A stretch of DNA of 20,558 nucleotides from a virus. Positions 7,441-20,416 of the stretch are shown in pieces. Numbering within the stretch: position 1 is the stretch's first letter; every line of letters starts with the position of its first letter. The notes beneath the pieces are model-generated. The model did no database searches, was not told the DNA's origin, and saw only the letters and a list, made by a program, of their open reading frames with translations. Where the stretch lies: the IMG/VR virus record IMGVR_UViG_3300024520_000594, positions 1-20,558 of that record; one strand, given 5' to 3'. A program made the position numbers and the translations under genes.

Positions 7441-7622
7441 TAGCCGACCGCCGTGACGAAACGGAACGGCGAACTGGCTTGGGGATCGACGGCGTTGGGC
7501 GCGTTGTAATAATTGTTAAGCAACTTCACCATCGTCTCCGCGAAGATCGGCGACACGTTTGTCGCGATCGTTTGCGAGTGCTTTGCGTCAGGGTTGTTAG
7601 CATCTTGGCAGATGATTTTCAT
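7440..7622 (-). CDS. Small hypothetical protein, 60 aa
   Basis: No function recognised. The protein is MKIICQDANNPDAKH at the start, a helical middle around residues 25-41 and a C-terminal FRFVTAVG. The ATG at 7620-7622 comes one base after the VRR-NUC stop and has AAAGGAAAA in front of it; that ribosome-binding site is itself the coding end of the nuclease gene. The stop shares a base with the SNF2 helicase start (TAATG), so the small gene bridges two DNA-processing genes and is probably real. Confidence 0.65.
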   Translation of the reverse strand: MKIICQDANNPDAKHSQTIATNVSPIFAETMVKLLNNYYNAPNAVDPQASSPFRFVTAVG

Positions 7623-7623
7623 T

Positions 7624-8043
7624 TCATTTTCCTTTCTTCGGGTTCATTAGTTCTGTGAAAATTTCTGGCCAGTCGGAGGCGATCGTTTCATGAAGGATCT
7701 CCTCCCGCGGCATATCGTTAAGATACCGCGCGAGGGATCCGGGAACGAGATAAAACGCGCCGTGGTTATCCTTTATCAAGACATAGGTCACGATGGCTTT
7801 AGTCGCGGCCTTCAGGTGCCAATTGATCTGTCCCGGACGCAAGCCGCGGGATCCTAGAAAGCGGGTTGATTCTCGCTTCGGTCGGAGCGCATACTTCAGC
7901 TCCACCCAGCACTCGCTCTCCGGCCCACTAACGTGGACGTCAGGCATCCCCTCCGCCACTAGGTTTTCAATTCGTTGGAGCCAGACCGGAGTTGGCTTAT
8001 GGCGCTTCATCGCGTCGTATAGTTTTTGTTCAGGCTTTCTCAC
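7624..8043 (-). CDS. VRR-NUC domain nuclease
   Basis: Predicted PD-(D/E)XK-type nuclease of the VRR-NUC family, which in phages usually stands alone beside an SNF2 helicase and is thought to act on branched or flap DNA. The signature is clear: a glutamate early in the first helix (MRKPEQKLYDAM), then EGMPDVHV (catalytic Asp) and ECWVELK (Glu and Lys), followed by LRPGQINWHLKAATKA as the Q-containing helix. The 139-aa length matches the stand-alone form. It uses a GTG start (8041-8043) in a GTGA overlap with the upstream membrane-protein gene. Its last codons (NPKKGK) double as the ribosome-binding leader for the next gene. Confidence 0.9.
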   Translation of the reverse strand: MRKPEQKLYDAMKRHKPTPVWLQRIENLVAEGMPDVHVSGPESECWVELKYALRPKRESTRFLGSRGLRPGQINWHLKAATKAIVTYVLIKDNHGAFYLVPGSLARYLNDMPREEILHETIASDWPEIFTELMNPKKGK

Positions 8044-8465
8044 GACTCACCCCCTTTCTGTTCTGAACAAGTCGAGTCGATGGATGAACCGTCGCTCTCC
8101 GCGTTCGCCTTACTGATTTCCTCCTTTTTCTGCATATAGCAGAGGAATGGAATAAACGGCCACGCAAGGATCATCATCGCACCCATAAGAATGCAGAAGA
8201 TGGCGACGACTGGAGCGACAAAGAATGCCCCGATACCATACCAAAAAGGCGAACAAGTCGTTTCAACTGGTTTCGTTTCACTCACCGTGCGCTCCCCGTT
8301 CTGAACCTTGGCAAACTTCACAAGCATTGCTCCCTCCGATCCGATTTCTGGATCTCCCCAACACACGTTTACATCTTCTCTAATTGCCGACTCAATGTAC
8401 TTCTCAATGTCGTGGGGAATCCAGTCGCCATATACATCGAACTCTACCTCTACCATGACCTTCAT
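8040..8465 (-). CDS. Membrane protein, 141 aa
   Basis: Unknown membrane protein. Residues 1-70 form a soluble, acidic alpha/beta-like domain (MKVMVEVEFDVYGDWIPHDI). Residues 73-111 are hydrophobic and long enough for two passes with a Pro-containing turn (WYGIGAFFVAPVVAIFCILM then MILAWPFIPFLCYM). The last 30 residues are polar. Both ends would then be cytoplasmic. The ATG at 8463-8465 overlaps the upstream stop as TGATG after a run of seven Gs; the longer reading is an extension through the upstream gene. This gene and its three upstream neighbours lack the GGATCC/CCGCGG richness of the rest of the window. Confidence 0.6.
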   Translation of the reverse strand: MKVMVEVEFDVYGDWIPHDIEKYIESAIREDVNVCWGDPEIGSEGAMLVKFAKVQNGERTVSETKPVETTCSPFWYGIGAFFVAPVVAIFCILMGAMMILAWPFIPFLCYMQKKEEISKANAESDGSSIDSTCSEQKGGES

Positions 8466-8773
8466 CACGCCCCCCCTTCCGAACCAATCGAGGCAGGAGG
8501 ACTTTCGCCCCTGCTCTCCCCGTTCGGCTGAATAGGTCCGTCGATCCTCACAGCGCAAAACGGGCAATGAGGGAAGATCATTCCGCGCTCGGTGTGATCC
8601 CCGCTCTTAAAGCCGAACACTGTCCGCGTCGGTCCCTCAATCGTGGATAAAGCCCAGCACCAAAGACCACGCTTCTTACCCTTCGGGTGTCCGTACTCGC
8701 AAGATTCACGGAGCAGGGAGCAGGGCTTAACGTGCTGACCCTCAACCGTGCATTTCAACTTTCGTTCACTCAT
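8465..8773 (-). CDS. Cys-rich small protein, 102 aa
   Basis: Unknown function. Cysteines at residues 8, 18, 25 and 39 and a C-x2-C pair in FPHCPFCAVRID (about 68-79) suggest a small metal-binding fold. The sequence has the look of small Cys-rich proteins often seen in phage early regions. The last 25 residues are Gly/Ser/Pro-rich and probably disordered. The start ATGAGTGAACG overlaps the end of the upstream gene by 8 nt and has AAAGGAGAAG in front. Its stop is coupled to the membrane protein through TGATG. Confidence 0.6.
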   Translation of the reverse strand: MSERKLKCTVEGQHVKPCSLLRESCEYGHPKGKKRGLWCWALSTIEGPTRTVFGFKSGDHTERGMIFPHCPFCAVRIDGPIQPNGESRGESPPASIGSEGGA

Positions 8774-9017: not shown

Positions 9018-9159
9018 GATCTTCTCCGTTCTTACAATCAGGGCAAACGCAATCAAAGCGGGTGCCCGAAAATGCCTTGCGGCAATATATGCAATTCCTT
9101 CGGTACGCCTCTCGTTGGCGTCCAATAAACTTTTCAAAATCTCTCTGTTCCTCACTCAT
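9010..9159 (-). CDS. Zinc-ribbon microprotein, 49 aa
   Basis: A 49-codon ORF missed by a longer length cutoff. The protein starts MSEEQRDFEKF and holds a metal-binding pattern: C-x2-C at residues 23-26 (NCIYCRKAF), then C-x-C-x2-C at 37-42 (FDCVCPDC). Four of these Cys could bind zinc, as in small zinc ribbons or HNH-like treble clefs. Its ATG overlaps the DnaE stop (GAATGAGTGA) and its TGA lies inside the start of the next gene, so it fills the space exactly. The competing longer ORF in this stretch has no such support. Confidence 0.6.
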   Translation of the reverse strand: MSEEQRDFEKFIGRQREAYRRNCIYCRKAFSGTRFDCVCPDCKNGEDHE

Positions 9160-11945
9160 TCGAACATCCCCGGATTGGTTAGGCATTTAACTTTCTGAAC
9201 GAGCAACATCGAGAAGTCGGCGAGCCACCGGCCGCGAACGAGGAACCAATCTTGCCCCGGCACCGCTTTGTCCGCCATCGGTTCGCCGATCGCTCGCCAT
9301 AGGCGCGGGTTGGTTCGGATCCGCGCGGGCTTGCTTATGGAATCATCGACCACAAAGCTGTCTAGGAATAACGTCTGCCCCTTCATCCGATCGCCTCCGC
9401 GCTTCGCAACTAACATCGCCTCATTCTTGTCGCGGCGATCGTTCTTCACGAGCATACAAATCATCACAGCCTCCTCACCTTCGACCAGCTCCCCAAACTC
9501 CTTCACCCCTCCCCGGATATTGTAGGTGTCCGGGTTGGAATAATAATCCTGCCAGAGCGTATGGGCCGGGGAAAGGTCGTGGTGCTTGACCTTCCTCGCG
9601 AGGAGCGCGGTGACTTCCTTTTCCGTTAGGCCGGTGGACTCGCGCTTGAGGATATATTGTTCCGACTTTACCGGCCCAATGCCGTGGAGATTAGTGAAGC
9701 CACCGATGACCTTCCCGGCCGCGGCCGTCCACGTCGCTTGCGAATGTACCGGATCAAACGGAACGTACTCAACGCCCTCATCGCGTAACTCCCGGAGGAT
9801 CTCCACCGCTTGCTCGTCATCCTTCGCGGTTCGTAGGCAAGCCGCGGCATATTCCAGCGGGTGGTATCGCTTCATGTACGCGCACCAGTAGCTGATGATC
9901 GCATAGCTAACCGTGTGGCTCTTATTCATCCCCCACGATCCGAATGAACAAATCTCCTCCCACGCGATCGCCGCCTCATCCGCGGTCATCCCAGACTCCT
10001 CTGCGCCCTTCGCAAACTTCGCGCCGTAGCTATCGAAAAACTCTTGGCCGATCGACTTGGACATGATGCGCCGGATCGCGGCTGTATCGGCCCAGCTGAA
10101 CCGGCCGATCTCCCGGCAGATCCTCATCACCTGCTCTTGGTAAAGAACAACGCCGTGCGTCTCGCCTAGGTACTCGGCCATGGACTCGTGGCGGTAGGTG
10201 ATCGGCTCCTCGCCGCGGTCGCGGTTTAGGTACGCCGTGGCCGCGCCGCCTCCCAGCGGTCCCGGTCGAGCGAGAGCGGTGATGTGGTCGATCTGTTTGA
10301 AACTTCGGATCGGAATTTGAACCGCTACTCGCCGTTGGGCCGCGCCTTCGAATTGGAACAGGCCGGAGAATTTGTGCTCATTAAATATCGCCAGCACCTC
10401 CGGGTCATCCAGCTTCATATCGTAAAGCTCTTGCGGCGTTATACAGCCGGTGTCCTCGATGACGCCTAGCGTTCGGAGGCCCAGCGCGTCGATCTTCAGA
10501 AGGTTCAAATATTCCGCCTCCTTCTTATCGATGTGGGCTATCCCGTCGCGCACCGTACAGTACTCGATCACCGGAACATTCGCGACGATGATACCCGCGG
10601 CGTGCTGGCCGGTATGGCTCGCGTGTTCCTCTAACTCGCCGATGAGCGATGCCTCTGGATAGCTCTTTATGAAGTCGCGTCCCGGTTGCGTTCCCTCCAT
10701 CGTATCCTCCATGGCGTGGCCATAGCGTGCGTCGCCGGAGCTGTGTTCAACTAGGACGTTAAGAACGCTGAAGGTGGCGCCGGCTGAAATCCCTAACTTC
10801 TTCCCGACGTGCGCCATGACCGATCGCGGCTTGAGCCGGTTCACGGATCCGATCCGGGCAACATTCTCGCGACCGTACTTCACCGCGAGATAGTCGAGAA
10901 CCAGATGGCGTTTCTTATCGTTAAAGTCAACGTCAATATCCGGGAGGTCATCGCGGTTGACGTCAATGAATCGTTCGAACAGCAGGCCGTGAACGAGCGG
11001 GTCCACTTCGGTAATTTCCATCAGGTAGCAAACGAGCGAACCGGCCGCGGATCCTCGTGCCGGTCCAACCAGCATCCGTTCCTTAGCCCACAGGATCATA
11101 TCGGCGACCACGAGGAAGTATGAAACATAATCCTTCTCAGCGATCAGTACCATCTCACGCCGGAGTCGCGCTTCATATTCTTCAGTCCACTCCTCGATGT
11201 GCCCGCGCTCTAGTCGGTACGCCTTCCCCGCGGCGATCGCGCCTTCAAAATCCCCGTCCACTTTAATGATCGGAGCCTGCTTCATAACCAACGCCGGGAT
11301 CCGTTCCCCGACTTCGATGGTGTTCGCGATCGCCGCGGCCAACTCCTTCTCCGTCAGCAGGCCGGTATCCCGGAACCGTTCAACCAGTTCCTCTCCGCTC
11401 ATTATGTACTGGGGTGTCATGCGCTTCGAATCGTTCCACGCTAGGAAGCGGCCGCGATCCTCCGGCGCGGGGTAATCGTTCAACCCCGTTAGCACCATCG
11501 GCTTGCCCGTCTCCCGGTGAAGGTCGATGGCGTTGCGGAGTTGGAGGCGGGAGGAAGGGTTGATGTCGATGTAATCGAACGCGGCCGGATCCCGGAGCGC
11601 CGCGCCCGCGAACCGGATCACCCCGGTCAGCTTCATCGCTTCTTCTTCGGATCGCGGAGGGGTGGAGGAGATCCGATAGAAGGCCGCGAGGTCAAGCGCG
11701 AGGATCCAGAATGTAGGTTTCCGGCCGTCGATCATCTCAATCGGAAACTCAGCGCCGTACATCGCTTTCACCGGACTATCCTTCAACGCTTTCTCCCACG
11801 CTACGTGGCCCCACGTTCCTAGGGTATCTACTAGCCCAGCCGCGGGGCAGGTCAGCCCTTCTAGGCGGCTTAGGATTCGCGGAATAGGTCCGTATGCGGA
11901 TCGGAAGCTGTACTCGCTCCTCGTTCGGAGGTTCGGGAGGTTCAT
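9156..11945 (-). CDS. DNA polymerase III alpha subunit-like, DnaE type
   Basis: Replicative C-family DNA polymerase encoded by the phage, 929 aa against about 1160 for E. coli DnaE. Catalytic and structural motifs: GPARGSAAGS (294-303), PDIDVDF (335-341, with D338 and D340 as the metal-binding pair), LLKIDALGL with the third Asp at D486, ARPGPLGGG (559-567), LYQEQVM (601-607) and FGSWGMNKSHTVSYAIISYW (about 668-687). A probable OB-fold lies near the C-terminus, and the tau-binding tail appears to be missing. The N-terminal PHP domain is recognisable (RTRSEYSF, then LVDTLGTWGHV) but the usual HxHS and TDHG metal ligands are absent, so PHP nuclease activity is unlikely. The exonuclease gene directly upstream overlaps by 4 nt and probably supplies proofreading. 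Confidence 0.95.
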   Translation of the reverse strand: MNLPNLRTRSEYSFRSAYGPIPRILSRLEGLTCPAAGLVDTLGTWGHVAWEKALKDSPVKAMYGAEFPIEMIDGRKPTFWILALDLAAFYRISSTPPRSEEEAMKLTGVIRFAGAALRDPAAFDYIDINPSSRLQLRNAIDLHRETGKPMVLTGLNDYPAPEDRGRFLAWNDSKRMTPQYIMSGEELVERFRDTGLLTEKELAAAIANTIEVGERIPALVMKQAPIIKVDGDFEGAIAAGKAYRLERGHIEEWTEEYEARLRREMVLIAEKDYVSYFLVVADMILWAKERMLVGPARGSAAGSLVCYLMEITEVDPLVHGLLFERFIDVNRDDLPDIDVDFNDKKRHLVLDYLAVKYGRENVARIGSVNRLKPRSVMAHVGKKLGISAGATFSVLNVLVEHSSGDARYGHAMEDTMEGTQPGRDFIKSYPEASLIGELEEHASHTGQHAAGIIVANVPVIEYCTVRDGIAHIDKKEAEYLNLLKIDALGLRTLGVIEDTGCITPQELYDMKLDDPEVLAIFNEHKFSGLFQFEGAAQRRVAVQIPIRSFKQIDHITALARPGPLGGGAATAYLNRDRGEEPITYRHESMAEYLGETHGVVLYQEQVMRICREIGRFSWADTAAIRRIMSKSIGQEFFDSYGAKFAKGAEESGMTADEAAIAWEEICSFGSWGMNKSHTVSYAIISYWCAYMKRYHPLEYAAACLRTAKDDEQAVEILRELRDEGVEYVPFDPVHSQATWTAAAGKVIGGFTNLHGIGPVKSEQYILKRESTGLTEKEVTALLARKVKHHDLSPAHTLWQDYYSNPDTYNIRGGVKEFGELVEGEEAVMICMLVKNDRRDKNEAMLVAKRGGDRMKGQTLFLDSFVVDDSISKPARIRTNPRLWRAIGEPMADKAVPGQDWFLVRGRWLADFSMLLVQKVKCLTNPGMFE

Positions 11946-12505
11946 ACCAGCACCCCGCTCGCCTTACAAATTTCCAAAAGCGCCTTCGCGTCATCCATCG
12001 CGCGGTGGGTCTGGTCAAGCGGCACCCCGGTATAGTATTCATACAGATCTTTCTCCCGGATCCGATAGCCAAACATCTGTAGGTGCTCCTCGACCGTACA
12101 AGTCAAGCGATCCGGCCAAGGCCATCCCTCGATCCCGCACCGTTCATTCTCCAACTCGACCATCGAGTGATCGAACGGGAGGTTGTGGGCGATGACTTGA
12201 TCCGCTTTCTCGTAATAGGGGCGGATGGTCGCGGCCGCTTCGCCCCACGTCGGCTCCTCCGCGAGATCCTCAACGACAATCCCGGAGATCTTTAGCACGC
12301 CCGCGGCATCCAATAGTTTTCCGATCTTCTCGCCGTCCGGGATAACGTACTCAGGGTTCACTAGCATTCCGAATTCCTCAAGGATCTCGCCGCGGGAGTT
12401 CACGAGGATCCCGCCCCACTCCACGATGCGCGGTTGTACCTCCGGCCGCGCGGTCGGGTGAAGGGGGATGCCGGTCGTTTCATTATCGAATATCAGGCTG
12501 ATCAT
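11942..12505 (-). CDS. DnaQ-like DEDDh 3'-5' exonuclease (proofreading)
   Basis: Predicted 3'-5' exonuclease of the DnaQ/epsilon type, a likely proofreading partner for the polymerase encoded next. Exo I is IFDNETTG (D7 and E9), Exo II is AHNLPFD (D112) and Exo III is HRAMDDA (H167 and D172, the HxAxxD form). All four catalytic acids and the histidine are present. The 187-aa length is close to the catalytic core of epsilon; the extra C-terminal alpha-binding segment of E. coli epsilon is missing. The ATG overlaps the glycosyltransferase stop and its own stop overlaps the polymerase start, both as 4-nt ATGA overlaps. Confidence 0.92.
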   Translation of the reverse strand: MISLIFDNETTGIPLHPTARPEVQPRIVEWGGILVNSRGEILEEFGMLVNPEYVIPDGEKIGKLLDAAGVLKISGIVVEDLAEEPTWGEAAATIRPYYEKADQVIAHNLPFDHSMVELENERCGIEGWPWPDRLTCTVEEHLQMFGYRIREKDLYEYYTGVPLDQTHRAMDDAKALLEICKASGVLV

Positions 12506-13338
12506 TCGAACACATCCATGGATCCGCCAGCGGCGATATACCGGCGCTCAATCTCTTTGTTCCACTGGCGACCGATCTTCATGAAACCGTTTTTGTAGGT
12601 GAATTTGAAGGGGCGCAAAAACTCCTTTTCAAACCAAGGCAGAAAGCTCTCCTCAAGCAAGTGGTCGTGAAGCAAATTGTCCGACTCCGCGGCATTATAC
12701 GTCGCGGTGGTTTGCTTATCGCGGTGTTGGGTGAAGTGGTTGAAACTCTTGGCGAAATAATAACCGGCGCACAACGCGTTGATGGTGACGATACAATCGG
12801 CGAATGGCCCGACCTGACGGCACTGCTCCTCAGTATAGATCCGGCCGTCATTAATGTTGCGGAATAATATGCCGCGCGCGGTGGATGAAAAATAACTCTT
12901 CACCGGTACGATGCGCTCACCGAAAGGCGAGCCGCCAAGGTGGCCGGTGAACTGGATGGAGCCGCACCGGGGTTGGGCGTCCATATAATCCACAGCTTGT
13001 AGAATCCTCCGGCCGGAATCCTTTCTGAATTCCAGGTTATCATCCACCATCAAGTAGTGTTCCGAATCGCGCGCGGCGATAGCTCCAATTTGGTTCAGCA
13101 AGTTGAATCTGACAGGGCGCTCCGGCGCTCGTTTCGTAAACTGATAAGAGGCAAAGCCGCGGCCGTCGATTGCGCCGGCAAATTCCGGTTCGGTCATCCG
13201 TTGGGATATCAAGCTGATCCCAACGGGGTGCTTTTCCAAGAGGGGTTTTAGCGCCTCTGTGCTGGAGGGTTTCAAAAGAAAATCTTGAATGTATTCCACA
13301 GGCTTGTTCGTTGGTACTAGCAAGGTGACTTTCATCAT
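12502..13338 (-). CDS. GT-A-like glycosyltransferase
   Basis: Probable nucleotide-sugar glycosyltransferase. The N-terminus KVTLLVPTNKP looks like the first strand of a GT-A Rossmann core. A helix FNLLNQIGAIAARDSEHYLM leads into VDDNLEF with D99-D100-N101, a DxD-type metal/nucleotide-sugar motif. A later HFTQHRDK (about 201-208) could give the C-terminal metal histidine common in GT-A enzymes. The 278-aa length fits. It has AGGAGGT before the ATG at 13336-13338 and 4-nt overlaps with both the HAD/Nmad1-like gene and the exonuclease. The acceptor is unknown. Its place between nucleotide-metabolism and polymerase genes favours a DNA base over a surface glycan, but this is inference. Confidence 0.6.
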   Translation of the reverse strand: MMKVTLLVPTNKPVEYIQDFLLKPSSTEALKPLLEKHPVGISLISQRMTEPEFAGAIDGRGFASYQFTKRAPERPVRFNLLNQIGAIAARDSEHYLMVDDNLEFRKDSGRRILQAVDYMDAQPRCGSIQFTGHLGGSPFGERIVPVKSYFSSTARGILFRNINDGRIYTEEQCRQVGPFADCIVTINALCAGYYFAKSFNHFTQHRDKQTTATYNAAESDNLLHDHLLEESFLPWFEKEFLRPFKFTYKNGFMKIGRQWNKEIERRYIAAGGSMDVFE

Positions 13339-14117
13339 CGCGCTACCTCCTCTTTTGTTATTTCGCTTTCGATCATCGCGGCGTACACCGCGAGGTCGTG
13401 AATAGAATCGGCGTGCGTTAGATCGCTCGCTACAAAGCGGGTGAGCTTCCCCACGACCATCTCCAGCAGGCCGAAGCGAGGAGCGTGGTACAACTCCGCG
13501 GGTACGCCGTCCGGGAATAGCGCGGCCATGATCGCGGACACCGTTTTGTAGTTGTCTTTATAGACCGCGTTGCGCTCCTCAAAAGTCGACGCCATTGACC
13601 GGAGGATCCCCGGAACGCCGGTGTGTTCTTTCGGCTCCTCCGGGTACGCCTTGAGGAGTTGGGTGGGGATATTTAGCGCGGCGTATGCGTCCAGTATATC
13701 TTGGCGATTGTCGTGGGCCATAACGATCGCTTGGCGAGCCATTAACGTCATCGCCATGTCTGTCATCGCCTTGGCGAGCAACCCCGCCTTCAATCCCGGC
13801 GACGGCCGCGCGTCTCCTCCCGGTCGCATGGTGAGAAGGAAGTCCGCCGCGGCTAGGCCGAAACGCTTCGCCAGCCACTGCCGCGTTTCGGCCACGAACA
13901 TCACCGGCCGCGAGGTAATGATCCAGATGCGGTGGCCTGAGTTTATGTAGCCTTGAACCTCATCGACGTTCCGCGGCTCATCCAACGGCGCGGCGTTATG
14001 GTACGGGAGCCAGTCGCCTTTCGGATCCTCCGGCCGGAGGTGGAGGCGGTGGCGATCGTCGCTGATACAACCGTCGAGATCGAACACCACGAGCTTGCGC
14101 GGGATAGCTATGCTCAT
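13335..14117 (-). CDS. HAD phosphatase fused to Nmad1/DUF1599-like domain
   Basis: Two-domain protein. Residues 8-160 are a HAD-superfamily phosphatase resembling the 3'-phosphatase half of phage polynucleotide kinase: motif I VVFDLDGCISD (D13, D15), motif II WIITSRP (T68), a Lys near 110 (GLKAGLL) and motif IV VMAHDNRQDI (D136, D140). Residues about 175-255 have STFEERNAVYKDNYKTVSAI, then MVVGKLTRFVAS and ADSIHDLAVYAAMIES. This is the pattern I recall for DUF1599, also called nucleotide-modification-associated domain 1. A nucleotide or modified-nucleotide phosphatase role is inferred. Coupled to thyX upstream by an ATGA overlap and to the glycosyltransferase downstream. Confidence 0.75.
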   Translation of the reverse strand: MSIAIPRKLVVFDLDGCISDDRHRLHLRPEDPKGDWLPYHNAAPLDEPRNVDEVQGYINSGHRIWIITSRPVMFVAETRQWLAKRFGLAAADFLLTMRPGGDARPSPGLKAGLLAKAMTDMAMTLMARQAIVMAHDNRQDILDAYAALNIPTQLLKAYPEEPKEHTGVPGILRSMASTFEERNAVYKDNYKTVSAIMAALFPDGVPAELYHAPRFGLLEMVVGKLTRFVASDLTHADSIHDLAVYAAMIESEITKEEVAR

Positions 14118-14863
14118 ACGGTCGCTCGCATCTGGTCGATGAGTTTGATCACCGCGGTTCGCGCTTCGGAGTCGGGCATGATCCCCATCACCTTTCCCTC
14201 CAACTCCGCGGCCGCGGCATCGAACGTGCGATCAAAGAAAAGCGTTGCCCAAGGGTGGACTCGCTTCACCTCCTCTAACATTAGGTTGAGCACCGTTCGG
14301 TACTCGCCTTGGGTCCGGGATGACGCGCGCTTTCTCGCGACGTCCGCCAGCGTTCGGAGATCGAATTTGGCGACGATGTTTGTATGGATGTTCGTCGGGA
14401 GAACGCCGCGCGCATCTTCGATCTTCGCGCCCATAGCGATGAGGTCGCGATAGGCGTGCGTGATGTCGGTCATACACTCATCGTATCGCTCTTGGCAACC
14501 GTCGTTATCGGCAACCGTGGGGCCGGTTCCGTAGGTCCAGCCGTCGACGTTAAGAACACGCATTGTTTGCTGGGCGTAGGATCCCGTCCGGGTACGAACG
14601 AACTGGTGGGTGAATCCGCGGGTGACGTTATTTATCATGAACGTGTAATCGACAAACTCCCAGCTGGAGGGAATCGTATTGGCCATGTATTCTAACTGCT
14701 CCCGGATCGCGTGCGCAGACCACCCTTCGATGTCCGATAGTAGATCAGGATTCATTTCCAATCGCGTCTGCTTAGTGAACACTAATAGGTTCGCCGCGGC
14801 GCGTGCGGGATCCGGCGAACCGGCACCGGTGTAGTTGACTAGTTGTACTTCTGGTTTCTTCAT
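14114..14863 (-). CDS. thyX: Flavin-dependent thymidylate synthase ThyX
   Basis: Converts dUMP to dTMP using methylene-tetrahydrofolate, FAD and NADPH. The diagnostic region is HQFVRTRTGSYAQQTMR (86-102), which corresponds to the RHRx7S signature but with Thr91 for His and Thr100 for the usual Ser. EDARGVLPTNIHTN (147-160), FDLRTLADVARKRASSRTQ (165-183) and GEYR (184-187) match the C-terminal nucleotide-binding part. The 249-aa length is usual for ThyX. GAAGGAGAAAG precedes the ATG at 14861-14863. It is separated from the upstream microprotein by a short leader with a tandem GAACT-type repeat. The next gene overlaps by 4 nt. The substituted signature residues leave some doubt about whether it makes dTMP or a related base. 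Confidence 0.9.
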   Translation of the reverse strand: MKKPEVQLVNYTGAGSPDPARAAANLLVFTKQTRLEMNPDLLSDIEGWSAHAIREQLEYMANTIPSSWEFVDYTFMINNVTRGFTHQFVRTRTGSYAQQTMRVLNVDGWTYGTGPTVADNDGCQERYDECMTDITHAYRDLIAMGAKIEDARGVLPTNIHTNIVAKFDLRTLADVARKRASSRTQGEYRTVLNLMLEEVKRVHPWATLFFDRTFDAAAAELEGKVMGIMPDSEARTAVIKLIDQMRATV

Positions 14864-14897
14864 CTTTCTCCTTCTTTCGTTTCTGTTCAGTTCAGTT

Positions 14898-15041
14898 CTA
14901 GTTGCGGCCTAGGTTCCAGTCCAATATTTCGATTGCGACTAGCACCGCCACCGCGGCAAAGGCGAGGAACAACAACAGCTCTCCCGCCATCCGTTTATCT
15001 ATAAGCGGCGCGGCGCTCCGGTTCGATCTTTTTCGTTTCAC
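14898..15041 (-). CDS. Single-TM microprotein, 47 aa
   Basis: A short ORF below the usual length limit. It starts at GTG (15039-15041), overlapping the oxidoreductase TGA as GTGA, with AAGGAG 6 nt upstream, which is an excellent ribosome-binding site. The product begins MKRKRSNRSAAPLIDKRM (positively charged) and continues into one membrane segment, ELLLFLAFAAVAVLVAIEIL (21-40), ending DWNLGRN. Charge distribution suggests N-terminus in the cytoplasm. No function can be assigned; it lies between the FAD oxidoreductase and thyX. Confidence 0.6.
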   Translation of the reverse strand: MKRKRSNRSAAPLIDKRMAGELLLFLAFAAVAVLVAIEILDWNLGRN

Positions 15042-15961
15042 GTCAACTCCTTCGGAAGCGCCGCGAGCGTCCGCGCGTAATCGCCGGAATGGATAAGCCG
15101 CTTGACCATTGCGGCGTCGTGAGCGACGTCATCCAAAAGGATGTTCCGCCAAGTAGCGAACCGGCCCACGGAGTAGATGTTATGTTTTGTCGTGAGCTGG
15201 CTGATAAGGCCGCGGCGCGTGGGCTCCTCGATCGGCGCAATCTTCCCGTACTGTTGTTTGATTTCATCGAGCGGTGCGGGCGGGTCGATCGCCGGGAGGC
15301 CGAATACATCGAGCGTATCGGTCAGCCAATCGTGCGGGATCTCGCGATCATATCCGCTTACAAATTCGCAGATGAGTAGATCGCCGGTGACGCTCGCCCG
15401 ATATAACGGGTGGCTATGGTCCGGGAAATAAACAGTCTGGTGGATGTCGCAATCCTCGATCCGAAAGCGCTGGACGGTAATCGGCGCGCGATCAAATTCC
15501 AGCTCTGGTATTCTCCAGCCTAGCAACTTCATCACTACCGGGAGCGGCGCGGTGGTGACTACCGGATCCGGCCCCGCGAGGTCCGCGCCTCCGATCGCCG
15601 TGCCCCAAGTAATCCGATGGCCCACGGAATTGATGAGTTGTTCATAGAAGTCGGGCGGCGCTATGTAGCGGGTGACGGGATCGACATTCCAGATAGATCG
15701 GTCAAGCGCCTTCCCAAGCACCTTTGTCGAATAGAGATTGGCGAGCCGCGGCGAGGGGGCGTGGTAGGATCCGTCACTCCAGATCCCTTTACGAACGGTC
15801 ACCGGTTTGAATTCAACTCCCGTAAGATCGGCGACGGCCGTGGATCGAAACCGGAGGAGCGCCTTGTGGATCTCCGTTGGCTCCGACATCGCCTCCAAGA
15901 TCGGTTCGCGAGGAAGGGCGTGGGCCGTTATCAGACCGGCCAGACCGGCTCCGACGATCAC
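15038..15961 (-). CDS. FAD-dependent oxidoreductase, amine-oxidase/UGM-like fold
   Basis: Predicted flavoprotein. The protein starts directly with the dinucleotide-binding motif MIVGAGLAGLITAHAL (GxGxxG at residues 4-9), followed by an acidic residue at the end of the second strand (E23) that would bind the FAD ribose. Near the C-terminus NIYSVGRFATWRN and LLDDVAHDA resemble the second FAD-contacting motif of the UDP-galactopyranose mutase/protoporphyrinogen-oxidase group. At 307 aa it is shorter than those enzymes (about 370-480 aa). It has a GTG start (15959-15961) with GGAGGTGG upstream and a GTGA overlap. The substrate is unknown; neighbours suggest nucleotide or base chemistry. Alternatives are a sugar mutase feeding the glycosyltransferase or a generic reductase. 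Confidence 0.75.
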   Translation of the reverse strand: MIVGAGLAGLITAHALPREPILEAMSEPTEIHKALLRFRSTAVADLTGVEFKPVTVRKGIWSDGSYHAPSPRLANLYSTKVLGKALDRSIWNVDPVTRYIAPPDFYEQLINSVGHRITWGTAIGGADLAGPDPVVTTAPLPVVMKLLGWRIPELEFDRAPITVQRFRIEDCDIHQTVYFPDHSHPLYRASVTGDLLICEFVSGYDREIPHDWLTDTLDVFGLPAIDPPAPLDEIKQQYGKIAPIEEPTRRGLISQLTTKHNIYSVGRFATWRNILLDDVAHDAAMVKRLIHSGDYARTLAALPKELT

Positions 15962-16209
15962 TTGCCCACCTCCAACCAGCCGGTTCGAATTAAGGAGTGG
16001 ATGTATCGGGTCGTGTCGTATCCGAAGTGCTTGTTGACCTCGCCGATAGTCGCGACGCCGCGGGTGTTCAGGATCATTAGGATGATCGCCTTGCTAACGG
16101 ACTCGCTCTGAAGCTTGGTCGCGCCACGCGGCCGGATCCGTACCACCGTCTCAGTCGTGTAACTCCGCGGCCGTCCCGCCGTTTTCTTGCTATGTTTAGC
16201 CATGTTCAT
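15958..16209 (-). CDS. Small DNA-binding-like protein (AT-hook plus HTH-like), 83 aa
   Basis: Possible DNA-binding regulator. The basic N-terminus KHSKKTAGRPRSY contains the GRPR core of an AT-hook. The C-terminal half, AIILMILNTRGVATIGEVNK followed by HFGYDTTRYIHSLIRTGWLE, has the helix-turn-helix-wing layout of a small winged helix. A GGAG ribosome-binding site precedes the ATG at 16207-16209; a second ATG two codons later is possible. It is the first gene after the hairpin at 16227-16257, so it heads the thyX/polymerase transcription unit and may regulate it. This is pattern-based; no named family. Confidence 0.6.
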   Translation of the reverse strand: MNMAKHSKKTAGRPRSYTTETVVRIRPRGATKLQSESVSKAIILMILNTRGVATIGEVNKHFGYDTTRYIHSLIRTGWLEVGK

Positions 16210-16263: not shown

Positions 16264-16728
16264 TTACTTCTTTACCTTCGGCACGTTGACCCACTTGCGG
16301 CCTTCGCTGTCCGTCTCTTTCCCGTTCGCCTTCAGGATCCCGCGGAATTGGATACACCCTTTCAGGTCGATCCCCAGAGCGCGAAACGCCGCGGGGCAGG
16401 ATTTGTAGGGTACGCCGTCGACGGTAACGGATGACCGTTCCGATCGCGCCGCGCGCACGGCCGGATCCTGCCAGCTAAGGGCGATGCCCGCGGAACGCTT
16501 CCCGGATTCGCCTGCGCCGTTCCCCTCGCCGCCTTCTTCTTCCGTAGCGAGAGCGCCAAGAGCGCCCAGCTCATCCTGTAGGACGTCGATGCGTGTCTCA
16601 GCTACGCCGCGGGAGGAAAACTTCACCACCTTCTTCCGGCCGATCTTCGCGGCGTGCTTGTTCCAGAATTCAACAAGCTCTTTAGTCGGGGTGGCGGGAG
16701 TTACTTCAATGCTTTTTACTTTCTTCAT
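16264..16728 (-). CDS. Two-domain hypothetical phage protein, 154 aa
   Basis: No firm function. Residues 10-50 (TKELVEFWNKHAAKIGRKKV then KFSSRGVAETRIDVL) match a short module I recall from many phage and plasmid proteins: a helix with N, then VKKFxSRxxAxxRI. An acidic Gly-rich linker follows (64-79). The C-terminal module, residues 86-149 (WQDPAVRAARSERSSVTVDG, YKSCPAAFRALGIDLKGCIQ and FRGILKANGK), is basic and helical and may bind nucleic acid. The ATG at 16726-16728 is preceded by AGAGAAAGAAA. It is the last gene before the hairpin terminator. Confidence 0.65.
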   Translation of the reverse strand: MKKVKSIEVTPATPTKELVEFWNKHAAKIGRKKVVKFSSRGVAETRIDVLQDELGALGALATEEEGGEGNGAGESGKRSAGIALSWQDPAVRAARSERSSVTVDGVPYKSCPAAFRALGIDLKGCIQFRGILKANGKETDSEGRKWVNVPKVKK

Positions 16729-18475: not shown

Positions 18476-19111
18476 CTAGGCGGGCAGGCGAGAGTCGCAA
18501 ACCGCATACGGCCGCTCCGACTCTTTAAGCCATCGGCCGATCTGCTCAGCCCACCGGCGCGCCTCTTGGCGAGAATGCCAAGGGTTGTGGAAATTCTTTC
18601 CTTCACGGAACGGGTTTTGGACATTCTCAATCCGGCGATCGCGCGGCCCATCGTATCCAGTCCGACCGAAGTCACCGAAGATATGCTCACGCCGGATCCA
18701 CCGCGCGCGGCTCCCCCACTTGAGTGCCTTGTCGTGAGGGTTGTAGATATTGAAGGCGCGGGTGAACCCTTCGGTCGGCCACGGGTATCCCGCCCGCATC
18801 GCGCCGTTGAATAGGAAAAGGGTATCAAATTGGATGGTGGGTTGCCACATGCTCCGGTACGTCGATGGGACTCCGTTGGAATGGGCGATGACATTTATTC
18901 CGCGGCCGTCCGGGAACGCGCGCAACGCGGCATCGGCCACCATCCGGCCGTTCGTCATTTGCGTTTTCCGGGAGGCCGCGGCGAACGCGCCGATCACCGG
19001 CAAGCCTAGGTCGATGACCTCGTGGCCCAGCGCGCGTAACTCCTCCGTCAACCGATCGATGTTATCAACACCGTTGGTTCGGATCCCGTTCACCGCGATG
19101 AAGCGAGCCAT
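18476..19111 (-). CDS. Alpha/beta-hydrolase fold serine esterase/lipase-like protein
   Basis: Predicted serine hydrolase, 211 aa. The N-terminal FIAVNGIRTNG resembles the oxyanion-loop start of hydrolases. INVIAHSNG (72-80) is the nucleophile elbow (S78; AHSNG instead of GxSxG). FNIYNPHDKAL gives a likely catalytic Asp127, and FHNPWHS (174-180) the likely His. The enzyme could cleave lipid or ester bonds of the host envelope during lysis, comparable in principle to LysB of mycobacteriophages, but sequence alone does not show the substrate. It starts 5 nt after the lipoprotein TAA with only a weak ribosome-binding site, suggesting translational coupling. It could also be a depolymerase or a metabolic esterase. 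Confidence 0.7.
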   Translation of the reverse strand: MARFIAVNGIRTNGVDNIDRLTEELRALGHEVIDLGLPVIGAFAAASRKTQMTNGRMVADAALRAFPDGRGINVIAHSNGVPSTYRSMWQPTIQFDTLFLFNGAMRAGYPWPTEGFTRAFNIYNPHDKALKWGSRARWIRREHIFGDFGRTGYDGPRDRRIENVQNPFREGKNFHNPWHSRQEARRWAEQIGRWLKESERPYAVCDSRLPA

Positions 19112-19116
19112 GGCGA

Positions 19117-19560
19117 TTAGGGAGTTGGAACGAGGAACGGAATCTGTTGCTCAACAACTAATGGCGCCGGCTGATTTACGACGGTGGGGCCAGCGGCCGC
19201 GTCCGCGAAAGCGCCGCCCACAATCCACCCAAGGCCAATCCGCCCCAGCCACTCGATGCCGGTGTTGACTACGTTCGGATCCTTCGGGATGGAGGCAAGC
19301 TCGCGCAACGGCATCGAGCGGGTGACGGTGACTGGACCTTTGATGATGAGGGAATACTCGCCGCCAACGCCCACCACGATCTTCTCGGTGTCGCCCGTTC
19401 GCGGTTGCTCCATGTAATTCTTGTGCGCGAGATAGCCGTACTTACCCGCATTGGGATTGGTGCACCCGGTGGAGGCCAGCATGACAAAGCAAGCTCCCAG
19501 CACTATGGCTGAGATGGGTAGGAGGTGCTTCCACGTTAAGGATTCTTCTTGTCGGTTCAT
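19117..19560 (-). CDS. Predicted lipoprotein, 147 aa
   Basis: Short cytoplasmic N-terminus (MNRQEESLTWKHLL), a hydrophobic signal (PISAIVLGACFVMLASTG) and a cysteine at residue 33. ASTGC is an acceptable though not ideal lipobox. The mature part is Pro/Val-rich with a Gly-rich hydrophobic stretch (IEWLGRIGLGWIVGGAFADA, about 103-122) and ends in PLVVEQQIPFLVPTP. The TM-protein gene overlaps it by 4 nt upstream and the hydrolase follows. One reading is an outer-membrane spanin subunit pairing with that TM protein; it may simply be an unknown virion or host-envelope lipoprotein. Confidence 0.65.
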   Translation of the reverse strand: MNRQEESLTWKHLLPISAIVLGACFVMLASTGCTNPNAGKYGYLAHKNYMEQPRTGDTEKIVVGVGGEYSLIIKGPVTVTRSMPLRELASIPKDPNVVNTGIEWLGRIGLGWIVGGAFADAAAGPTVVNQPAPLVVEQQIPFLVPTP

Positions 19561-19889
19561 TTTTCTTTCCAGTCGTTTATGCGGTGGTATTCCAGTTCGC
19601 GGGTGAAGTCTCGAAACATCTCACTCTGTTCTTTCAGAGCTACTGCCATAGTATTCATAGCGTCGGATGTCTGTTGAGCGGTTGCTACCTGTACAGCATG
19701 GCATTGACTGATACGCAATGCTGTTGAGTGATCCTTTACGGCTAGGGCGGCAAGGTCTTGCTGTCCCTCTGCCCATAGGAATACTACAAATGACACCACA
19801 ATTAGCAGGACAGCTACCCATTGGGGTGCGCCTGTAGCCATGCTCTTTGCCGCTTCAGTAGCGTTCTCTAGCGATTTATCAACTGACAT
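19557..19889 (-). CDS. Single-TM protein with helical ectodomain, 110 aa
   Basis: The membrane segment WVAVLLIVVSFVVFLW lies at about residues 24-39, followed by a helical domain with Ala/Gln/Met heptads (QVATAQQTSDAMNTMAVALK, EQSEMFRDFTREL). N-in topology with a periplasmic coiled coil is the layout of inner-membrane spanins; holin or tail-related roles are possible too. The ATG at 19887-19889 shares a base with the upstream stop (TGATG); a GTG one codon earlier is an alternative. The downstream lipoprotein gene overlaps by 4 nt. Confidence 0.6.
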   Translation of the reverse strand: MSVDKSLENATEAAKSMATGAPQWVAVLLIVVSFVVFLWAEGQQDLAALAVKDHSTALRISQCHAVQVATAQQTSDAMNTMAVALKEQSEMFRDFTRELEYHRINDWKEK

Positions 19890-20416
19890 CACAACACCGC
19901 CTCGACCTGCTCGCGGGTAACAGGTACGCCGCCATTATATACGTCCACCCACAAGCTCGTTTTGGTCTGCGTCTCTGCTACGCTCGCCTCTGCGAAGTTC
20001 GGGTCAGAGAACCCCGTGCCGGTCGTCTTTTCTGCATGGTTTGCTTCGTCGCGTACTGCAAGGATTTCGGTCCATGCGATGGCGCGTTCAAGCCTGCCGT
20101 CTGCCGTCGCTCCGTTGCGGATGTAGTTTTTAGCTACCGAGTTAACCTGCTTATGCGGAAGCTGTTGAAGGATCGTCCATACTTCGGCGTTGGTCTTGTT
20201 GCTTCCAAGATCCTTTACAAGTTGAATAGCTCGATCCTTCATGTCGGCTTCGGCAAGAACGGTTGCCGCCTCGCGTGGTACAACGACCTGATCGGTTGCG
20301 GATATGAATTGATAGCCGTTTACAGCGTTCAAAAGTGCGCCAAGGTTCCGACGTAGCTTGGGGCGTCGGGAGATTGCCGCCGCAACTGCTTCTCTAATTG
20401 TGGTTGGTGTACTCAT
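19889..20416 (-). CDS. Hypothetical protein, 175 aa
   Basis: Function not recognised. The protein looks helical and soluble (MSTPTTIREAVAAAISRRPK, then LRRNLGALLNAVNGYQF, DMKDRAIQLVKDLGSNK and ILQQLPHKQVNSVAKNYI). The C-terminal VDVYNGGVPVTREQVEAVL might be a small interaction tail. AGGAGA lies about 9 nt before the ATG at 20414-20416, in the last codons of the LamG-like gene. It sits at the border between the structural side and the putative lysis genes, so a virion or assembly role is possible. Lower GC than the replication genes. Confidence 0.65.
   Translation of the reverse strand: MSTPTTIREAVAAAISRRPKLRRNLGALLNAVNGYQFISATDQVVVPREAATVLAEADMKDRAIQLVKDLGSNKTNAEVWTILQQLPHKQVNSVAKNYIRNGATADGRLERAIAWTEILAVRDEANHAEKTTGTGFSDPNFAEASVAETQTKTSLWVDVYNGGVPVTREQVEAVL

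Follow-up and report, generated by a model that had tools for sequence, protein, structure and literature searches.

A conserved phage gene module with a variant ThyX and a flavoprotein, a candidate system for DNA pyrimidine modification

The IMG/VR virus record IMGVR_UViG_3300024520_000594 is a 20.6-kb IMG/VR fragment, which was analysed over its whole length and is referred to here as the window. On its minus strand it carries a block of genes in which a flavin adenine dinucleotide (FAD)-binding oxidoreductase (ox), a relative of the flavin thymidylate synthase ThyX, a HAD phosphatase and a GT-A-fold glycosyltransferase run into the genes for an exonuclease and for the alpha subunit of DNA polymerase III (Pol III alpha). 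Sequence comparison indicates that this block is a conserved, widespread module of several hundred phages. The module probably replaces or decorates thymine in phage DNA, with one gene position that varies by phage. Its reading as a DNA pyrimidine-modification module, to which we give a probability of about 60%, is supported by a ThyX that lacks the histidine of the RHR signature in genomes with no ThyA-type enzyme, by group-transfer and redox enzymes at variable positions, and by published and unexplained restriction resistance. No earlier description of the module as a modification system was found in the open PMC literature.

Gene order and distribution

The block begins with ox (15038-15961), which has a GTG start, an N-terminal FAD-binding GxGxxG motif and a match to PHROG_4828 at 2.7e-83. 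It is followed by a microprotein of 47 amino acids with a single transmembrane segment (14898-15041), recognized by direct reading of the sequence and probably accessory, and by the ThyX-like gene (14114-14863). The next gene encodes a HAD phosphatase resembling the phosphatase of T4 polynucleotide kinase (Pnkp), with a C-terminal all-alpha, DUF6378-like domain at about residues 165-260 (13335-14117). The glycosyltransferase (12502-13338), assigned from a predicted model, occupies the variable, or tailoring, slot. A DEDD 3'-5' exonuclease (11942-12505) borders the module on its downstream side, followed by Pol III alpha (9156-11945) as the module's fixed downstream partner. An earlier note on this DNA had described these genes as contiguous, mostly joined by 4-nt overlaps and running straight into the exonuclease and polymerase genes. 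They are real open reading frames (ORFs), all on the minus strand, and the overlaps were confirmed at six junctions (upstream ORF/ox, ox/microprotein, ThyX/HAD, HAD/glycosyltransferase, glycosyltransferase/exonuclease and exonuclease/polymerase), the exception being a 34-nt gap that separates the microprotein from ThyX.

The gene-neighbourhood search that the note had suggested recovered the same order in isolated phages. Using tblastn and annotated records, the order ox-ThyX-HAD-(slot)-exonuclease-Pol III alpha, followed by a small nuclease/helicase gene and a SNF2-type helicase gene, was found in Pbunavirus, Wifcevirus, Carpasinavirus and Luteibacter phage Pluto, and Myosmarvirus matches it up to the polymerase. 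The window itself shows this Lindbergviridae-type replication block (ox-ThyX-HAD-exonuclease-Pol III alpha-nuclease-SNF2), and the module is also present in podoviruses. Cronobacter phage Ss1 and Vibrio phage VA-RY-3 carry a close variant, in which the corresponding gene matches HAD, together with DUF3310 in Ss1.

IMG/VR was scanned twice, with alignments of ox and ThyX, and 80 loci were taken from each scan, out of 483 and 563 matching stretches, so that the true number of loci is larger. Together with phage records, these scans gave at least 164 loci with ThyX, or 122 once near-identical copies were removed. Ox lies upstream of ThyX in 119 of the 122, and 101 extend from ox through to the exonuclease or polymerase. 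HAD is found in 91 of these 101 complete loci and the all-alpha domain in 84. ThyX directly follows ox in 63 of them, and the microprotein is therefore not a conserved part of the module. Genes in these loci were called by mechanical choice of ORFs, which makes single small genes unreliable, and the loci are related to one another, so that the counts are not independent events. One contig (L006) encodes ox, ThyX and glycosyltransferase proteins identical to those of the window. In phage RHph_TM30, ox, ThyX, the protein combining HAD and all-alpha domains, and the glycosyltransferase are all present, the last about 40 kb away. The matches of ox to PHROG_4828 and of ThyX to Thy1 (3e-32), and the recurrence of the gene order in isolated phages and in 101 loci, show that the block is not a chance arrangement. 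The earlier proposal of a pyrimidine-modification cassette tied to replication genes has thus gained strong comparative support and fits the restriction resistance reported for relatives. A cassette unique to this phage is rejected: several hundred phages share the conserved module, and what distinguishes this phage is its glycosyltransferase alone.

The ThyX variant and its flavoprotein partner

Canonical ThyX enzymes are defined by the signature RHRX7-8S. The ThyX-like protein of the window has a Thy1 domain (PF02511), but the signature is absent, with RTRTGSYAQQTMR in its place. In all 141 module ThyX sequences caught by the main pattern, T, S or N stands where the signature has its histidine, and among 19 further sequences read by eye a single one (in L153) retains the histidine. 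In nine aligned sequences, an upstream Glu-His pair is also replaced by Glu/Asp-Phe. Module ThyX proteins share the Thy1 fold family and several conserved active-site arginines with canonical enzymes; they differ in these two replacements and in having ox as an almost constant companion. A search of 12 module-carrying records for ThyA-type synthases and hydroxymethylases (PF00303) found none, whereas 9 of 14 control genomes were positive; the TET/JBP dioxygenase family (PF12851) matched none of the 12 records and no control genome either. Another protein, gp88 of phiXF1, looked ThyX-like at 0.025 and was rejected, as the profile search did not pass it. One intermediate of the canonical ThyX reaction carries a methylene group and can be captured as a 5-hydroxymethyl compound, and a variant releasing a 5-hydroxymethyl product would therefore be chemically reasonable. 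The module ThyX, lacking the canonical RHR histidine, is by its sequence a candidate for the hydroxymethylase that the earlier note had reported as missing.

The structural model of ox is confident, with a predicted local distance difference test (pLDDT) score of 92. Its predicted fold is that of UDP-galactopyranose mutase, renalase and p-hydroxybenzoate hydroxylase (PHBH), with TM-scores of about 0.65-0.69 to UDP-galactopyranose mutases. It differs from these flavoproteins in that no sequence relation to solved proteins was found beyond the FAD motif, and a pattern scan of genome contigs returned no bacterial relatives. A UDP-galactopyranose mutase feeding the glycosyltransferase is unlikely, since ox is present in essentially all modules and the glycosyltransferase in few. 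Because ox accompanies ThyX whatever the tailoring gene, it is not a simple sugar-donor enzyme, and its most likely role is in the core chemistry and not in supplying sugar.

The variable position, restriction behaviour and competing explanations

The slot, that is the gap between the HAD and exonuclease genes, and other places in the block hold different enzymes in different phages. A short-chain dehydrogenase/reductase (SDR) together with a vicinal oxygen chelate (VOC)-like protein, so read from a weak Glyoxalase_4 match, occurs in 35 of the 101 loci. Other phages have carbamoyltransferases that carry both Pfam domains (E-values to 1e-55), a small Methyltransf_11 family, FkbM methyltransferases, radical SAM/SPASM proteins or GT-A glycosyltransferases. 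Vibrio phage VA-RY-3 encodes a sulfotransferase (PF13469, 5.8e-7; L012:8336-9091) between its HAD gene and the exonuclease, which would predict a sulfated base if the modification reading is true. As a control, Pfam was searched with 81 non-core proteins encoded within modules and with 70 flanking proteins drawn at random. The former included 10 Methyltransf_11 and 2 FkbM proteins, 6 carbamoyltransferases, 1 sulfotransferase and 2 Nmad5 proteins, as well as HNH endonucleases and other domains; the 70 flanking proteins included none of those transferases or Nmad5, and instead gave helicases, ligases and Pam3-like proteins. Over 32 module records, Nmad5 was found in four, three times inside the module and once just upstream, as judged by coordinate conversion. 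Capping of a hydroxyl group is a common activity of glycosyl-, carbamoyl-, sulfo- and O-methyltransferases, which would give the slot a shared logic. For one phage carbamoyltransferase that has the Pfam domains of the module enzymes, action on 5-hydroxymethylcytosine (5hmC) has been proven (PMC8670742). Proteins resembling pyrimidine-dimer DNA glycosylases (PF03013) were also seen in or near the module (L161:8423-8989, L168:9269-9763, L055:2448-2948 and L187:9312-9899).

Published restriction data are available for cultured relatives. Virion DNA of JG024, a module carrier, was reported not to be cut by ScaI, NdeI or BsaI and to be cut by XbaI, and the original authors suggested methylation to account for the resistance (PMC10913387); the genome has 2, 10 and 5 sites for the three failing enzymes, respectively. 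DNA of Pbunavirus AA20 resists 10 of 16 enzymes and that of AC20 resists 7 (PMC11945000), and Wifcevirus isolates are insensitive to the tested restriction-modification systems except EcoP1_I, without known protection (PMC11990801). DNA of phage ViI, which contains decorated 5-hydroxymethyldeoxyuridine (5hmdU), likewise resists NdeI (PMC6449724). Cutting at sites made of G and C only, with failure at several sites that contain T, fits a change of thymine or adenine and argues against a bulky change of cytosine. JG024 does not follow the TG/TC dinucleotide rule of known 5hmdU-derived bases, as XbaI (TCTAGA) cuts and ScaI (AGTACT) fails. Site frequencies in JG024 (L184, L185) are skewed, with far fewer sites than expected for BsaI (5 vs 39) and SacII (3 vs 31), none for SmaI or XhoI, and more than expected for EcoRI (39 vs 12) and EcoRV (33 vs 12).

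Other observations count against DNA modification. Besides XbaI, SacII cuts JG024 DNA (PMC3008698), HindIII and MspI cut the DNA of AA20 and AC20 (PMC11945000), and phage SCUT-S1 was mapped with HindIII, EcoRI and XbaI (PMC6521218); since XbaI and HindIII cut, any base change would be partial, small or context-dependent. Part of the resistance of AA20 may reflect missing sites, as JG024 has none for SmaI and XhoI. Only about 8% of enzymes fail on DNA with bare 5hmdU (PMC7653180), so that this base on its own could account for little of the resistance. A missing RHR histidine is not in itself proof of a new reaction, the glycosyltransferase model has low confidence in its C-terminal half, and Pbunavirus has no slot gene beside HAD. 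JG024 does encode, far from the module, a methyltransferase that is 45% identical to a slot methyltransferase (gp13, L184:6792-7292), but this gene is found in only 58 Pseudomonas phage records against 291 with ox, and Pbunavirus isolates may therefore differ in their DNA base. Finally, nucleoside chemistry was found in the open PMC literature for no module carrier; the identity of the base is accordingly inferred, and it is held with less confidence than the reading of the module itself.

The strongest alternative, in our view unlikely but deserving serious attention, is plain nucleotide metabolism, in which the ThyX-like enzyme makes thymidylate (dTMP), the flavoprotein supplies or recycles a cofactor, HAD and the all-alpha domain clean the deoxynucleotide pool, and the transferases are passengers in an insertion-tolerant gap. 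ThyX, HAD, MazG-like and polymerase genes do all handle nucleotides, HNH endonucleases and unrelated ORFs also occupy the gap, and Pbunavirus works with its slot empty. Passengers would nevertheless not be expected to be mostly group-transfer or redox enzymes when the flanking genes are not, the alteration of the ThyX signature is consistent, and the restriction resistance of JG024 and Wifcevirus would be left unexplained.

The window glycosyltransferase has no significant family match by sequence. Its predicted model (pLDDT 65) is matched by Foldseek to GT-A enzymes at E-values of about 1e-5, the best matches being SpsA, collagen LH3 and wall-glycan enzymes, and an invariant DD pair at residues 99-100 forms an acidic DxD-like motif, in agreement with the GT-A-like assignment made earlier. 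As GT-A enzymes mostly build glycans, and as RHph_TM30 has further sugar genes near its copy, such as a nucleotide-sugar epimerase, this and the other slot enzymes might have a target other than DNA (for example a phage protein, a small molecule or glycans of the host surface), in which case their place beside replication genes would be a coincidence. That so many different chemistries share one place between nucleotide enzymes and a polymerase makes this improbable. Moreover, the close relatives of the glycosyltransferase recovered by the scans are all in a module or in a module-carrying genome, narrower profile searches returned almost only loci already known, and a distant relative (L170) lies within about 6 kb of genes that by inspection resemble QueC, QueD and QueE (L170:1399-4008 and 7620-8669). 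QueC, QueD and QueE form the set used for 7-deazaguanine DNA modification. A glycosylated 7-deazaguanine is possible in L170.

The earlier note had the HAD phosphatase fused to a DUF1599/Nmad1-like domain. The phosphatase stands, while the Nmad1 identity finds no support: PF07659 had no hit at E<=1 among 17 module-carrying records, with two control genomes positive, and the nearest Pfam family is DUF6378, whose best match (5e-5, in a relative) lies below the cut-off. At 4.7e-6, the profile of HAD aligns with the phosphatase domain of T4 Pnkp, and PHROGs label the protein polynucleotide kinase, so that it could be a 3'-phosphatase repairing DNA ends with a phage ligase, as in T4, beside unrelated neighbours; with no fused kinase domain, a deoxypyrimidine nucleotidase (NT5C) as its counterpart in mycobacteriophage Troll4, and ox, ThyX and the tailoring genes unaccounted for, this is very improbable.

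Proposed route, known systems and neighbouring genes

DNA pyrimidine modification is best read, we infer, as a flavin-based pathway leading to a deoxyuridine substituted at position 5, perhaps by a hydroxymethyl group, which would be O-glycosylated in the window phage. A 5-substituted dUMP, most likely 5-hydroxymethyl-dUMP, would be produced by the non-canonical ThyX together with its obligate partner ox. The HAD phosphatase and all-alpha domain would clear dTMP and dTTP or process the modified nucleotide, and the phage Pol III alpha and exonuclease, to judge from the fixed gene order, would incorporate it. The exchange of genes in the slot suggests that the enzyme encoded there would decorate the newly added group, either ahead of incorporation or following it. 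This enzyme is a GT-A glycosyltransferase in the window phage, and carbamoyl-, methyl- or sulfotransferases or the SDR/VOC pair take its place in relatives.

A diverged version of the module occurs in actinophages. Relatives of gp13 led to Troll4 and to Gordonia phage Terapin, in which an FAD-type protein and a gp13-family methyltransferase are found together with Pol III alpha and with a ThyX whose motif reads RQR or RTR. The end motif of the FAD-type protein is ox-like by eye, and the ox profile gave no match to it. Troll4 additionally encodes its NT5C nucleotidase and an SDR. Both phages follow the logic of the module, with diverged parts. Known thymine-replacing phages remove competing dTMP, and by analogy the Troll4 nucleotidase suggests this role for HAD.

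The proposed route resembles that of 5hmdU phages (SPO1/SP8) and of thymidine-hypermodified phages (M6, ViI and PhiW-14) in its use of nucleotide enzymes encoded by the phage, in later decoration of the uracil 5-position and in restriction resistance. In those phages the first enzyme is a dUMP hydroxymethylase of the ThyA family, and the hypermodified ones also employ a kinase acting on 5hmdU DNA; the module carriers searched encode no ThyA-family protein, and a ThyX variant with a new flavoprotein fills that position. A pyrimidine enzyme is likewise paired with a glycosyl- or carbamoyltransferase in the T4-type glucosyl-5hmC system and in the 5hmC carbamoyltransferase system (PMC8670742). By contrast, these systems modify cytosine via a ThyA-family dCMP hydroxymethylase, and Pbunavirus DNA is cut at sites made of C and G only (SacII and MspI).

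Three further genes of the window, each on the minus strand, were also noted. An 83-aa protein (15958-16209) overlaps the start of ox, has a weak AbiEi_4 match below the cut-off (0.0012) and is possibly a regulator. A 154-aa protein (16264-16728) resembles, by eye, module-adjacent proteins at its N-terminus (e.g. L065:7268-7969 and L067:9222-9704). A 211-aa protein (18476-19111) has an AHSNG motif like the nucleophile elbow of alpha/beta hydrolases, and adjoins a lipoprotein-like ORF (19117-19560) and a transmembrane ORF (19557-19892), possibly forming a lysis region.

If the module modifies DNA, it may explain the unexplained restriction resistance of Wifcevirus and of Pbunavirus, the latter being used in phage therapy. 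It also points to an unstudied pair of flavoenzymes, and the predicted bases would include glycosylated, sulfated, methylated or carbamoylated 5-substituted uracils. In its fullest and more tentative form, which we hold at somewhat less than even odds, the proposal is that the ThyX variant and the UDP-galactopyranose-mutase-fold flavoprotein would install a reactive 5-substituent to which the slot enzyme would add a glycosyl, carbamoyl, methyl, sulfo or oxidised cap, giving an undescribed family of DNA bases in hundreds of phages, therapeutic Pbunavirus among them.

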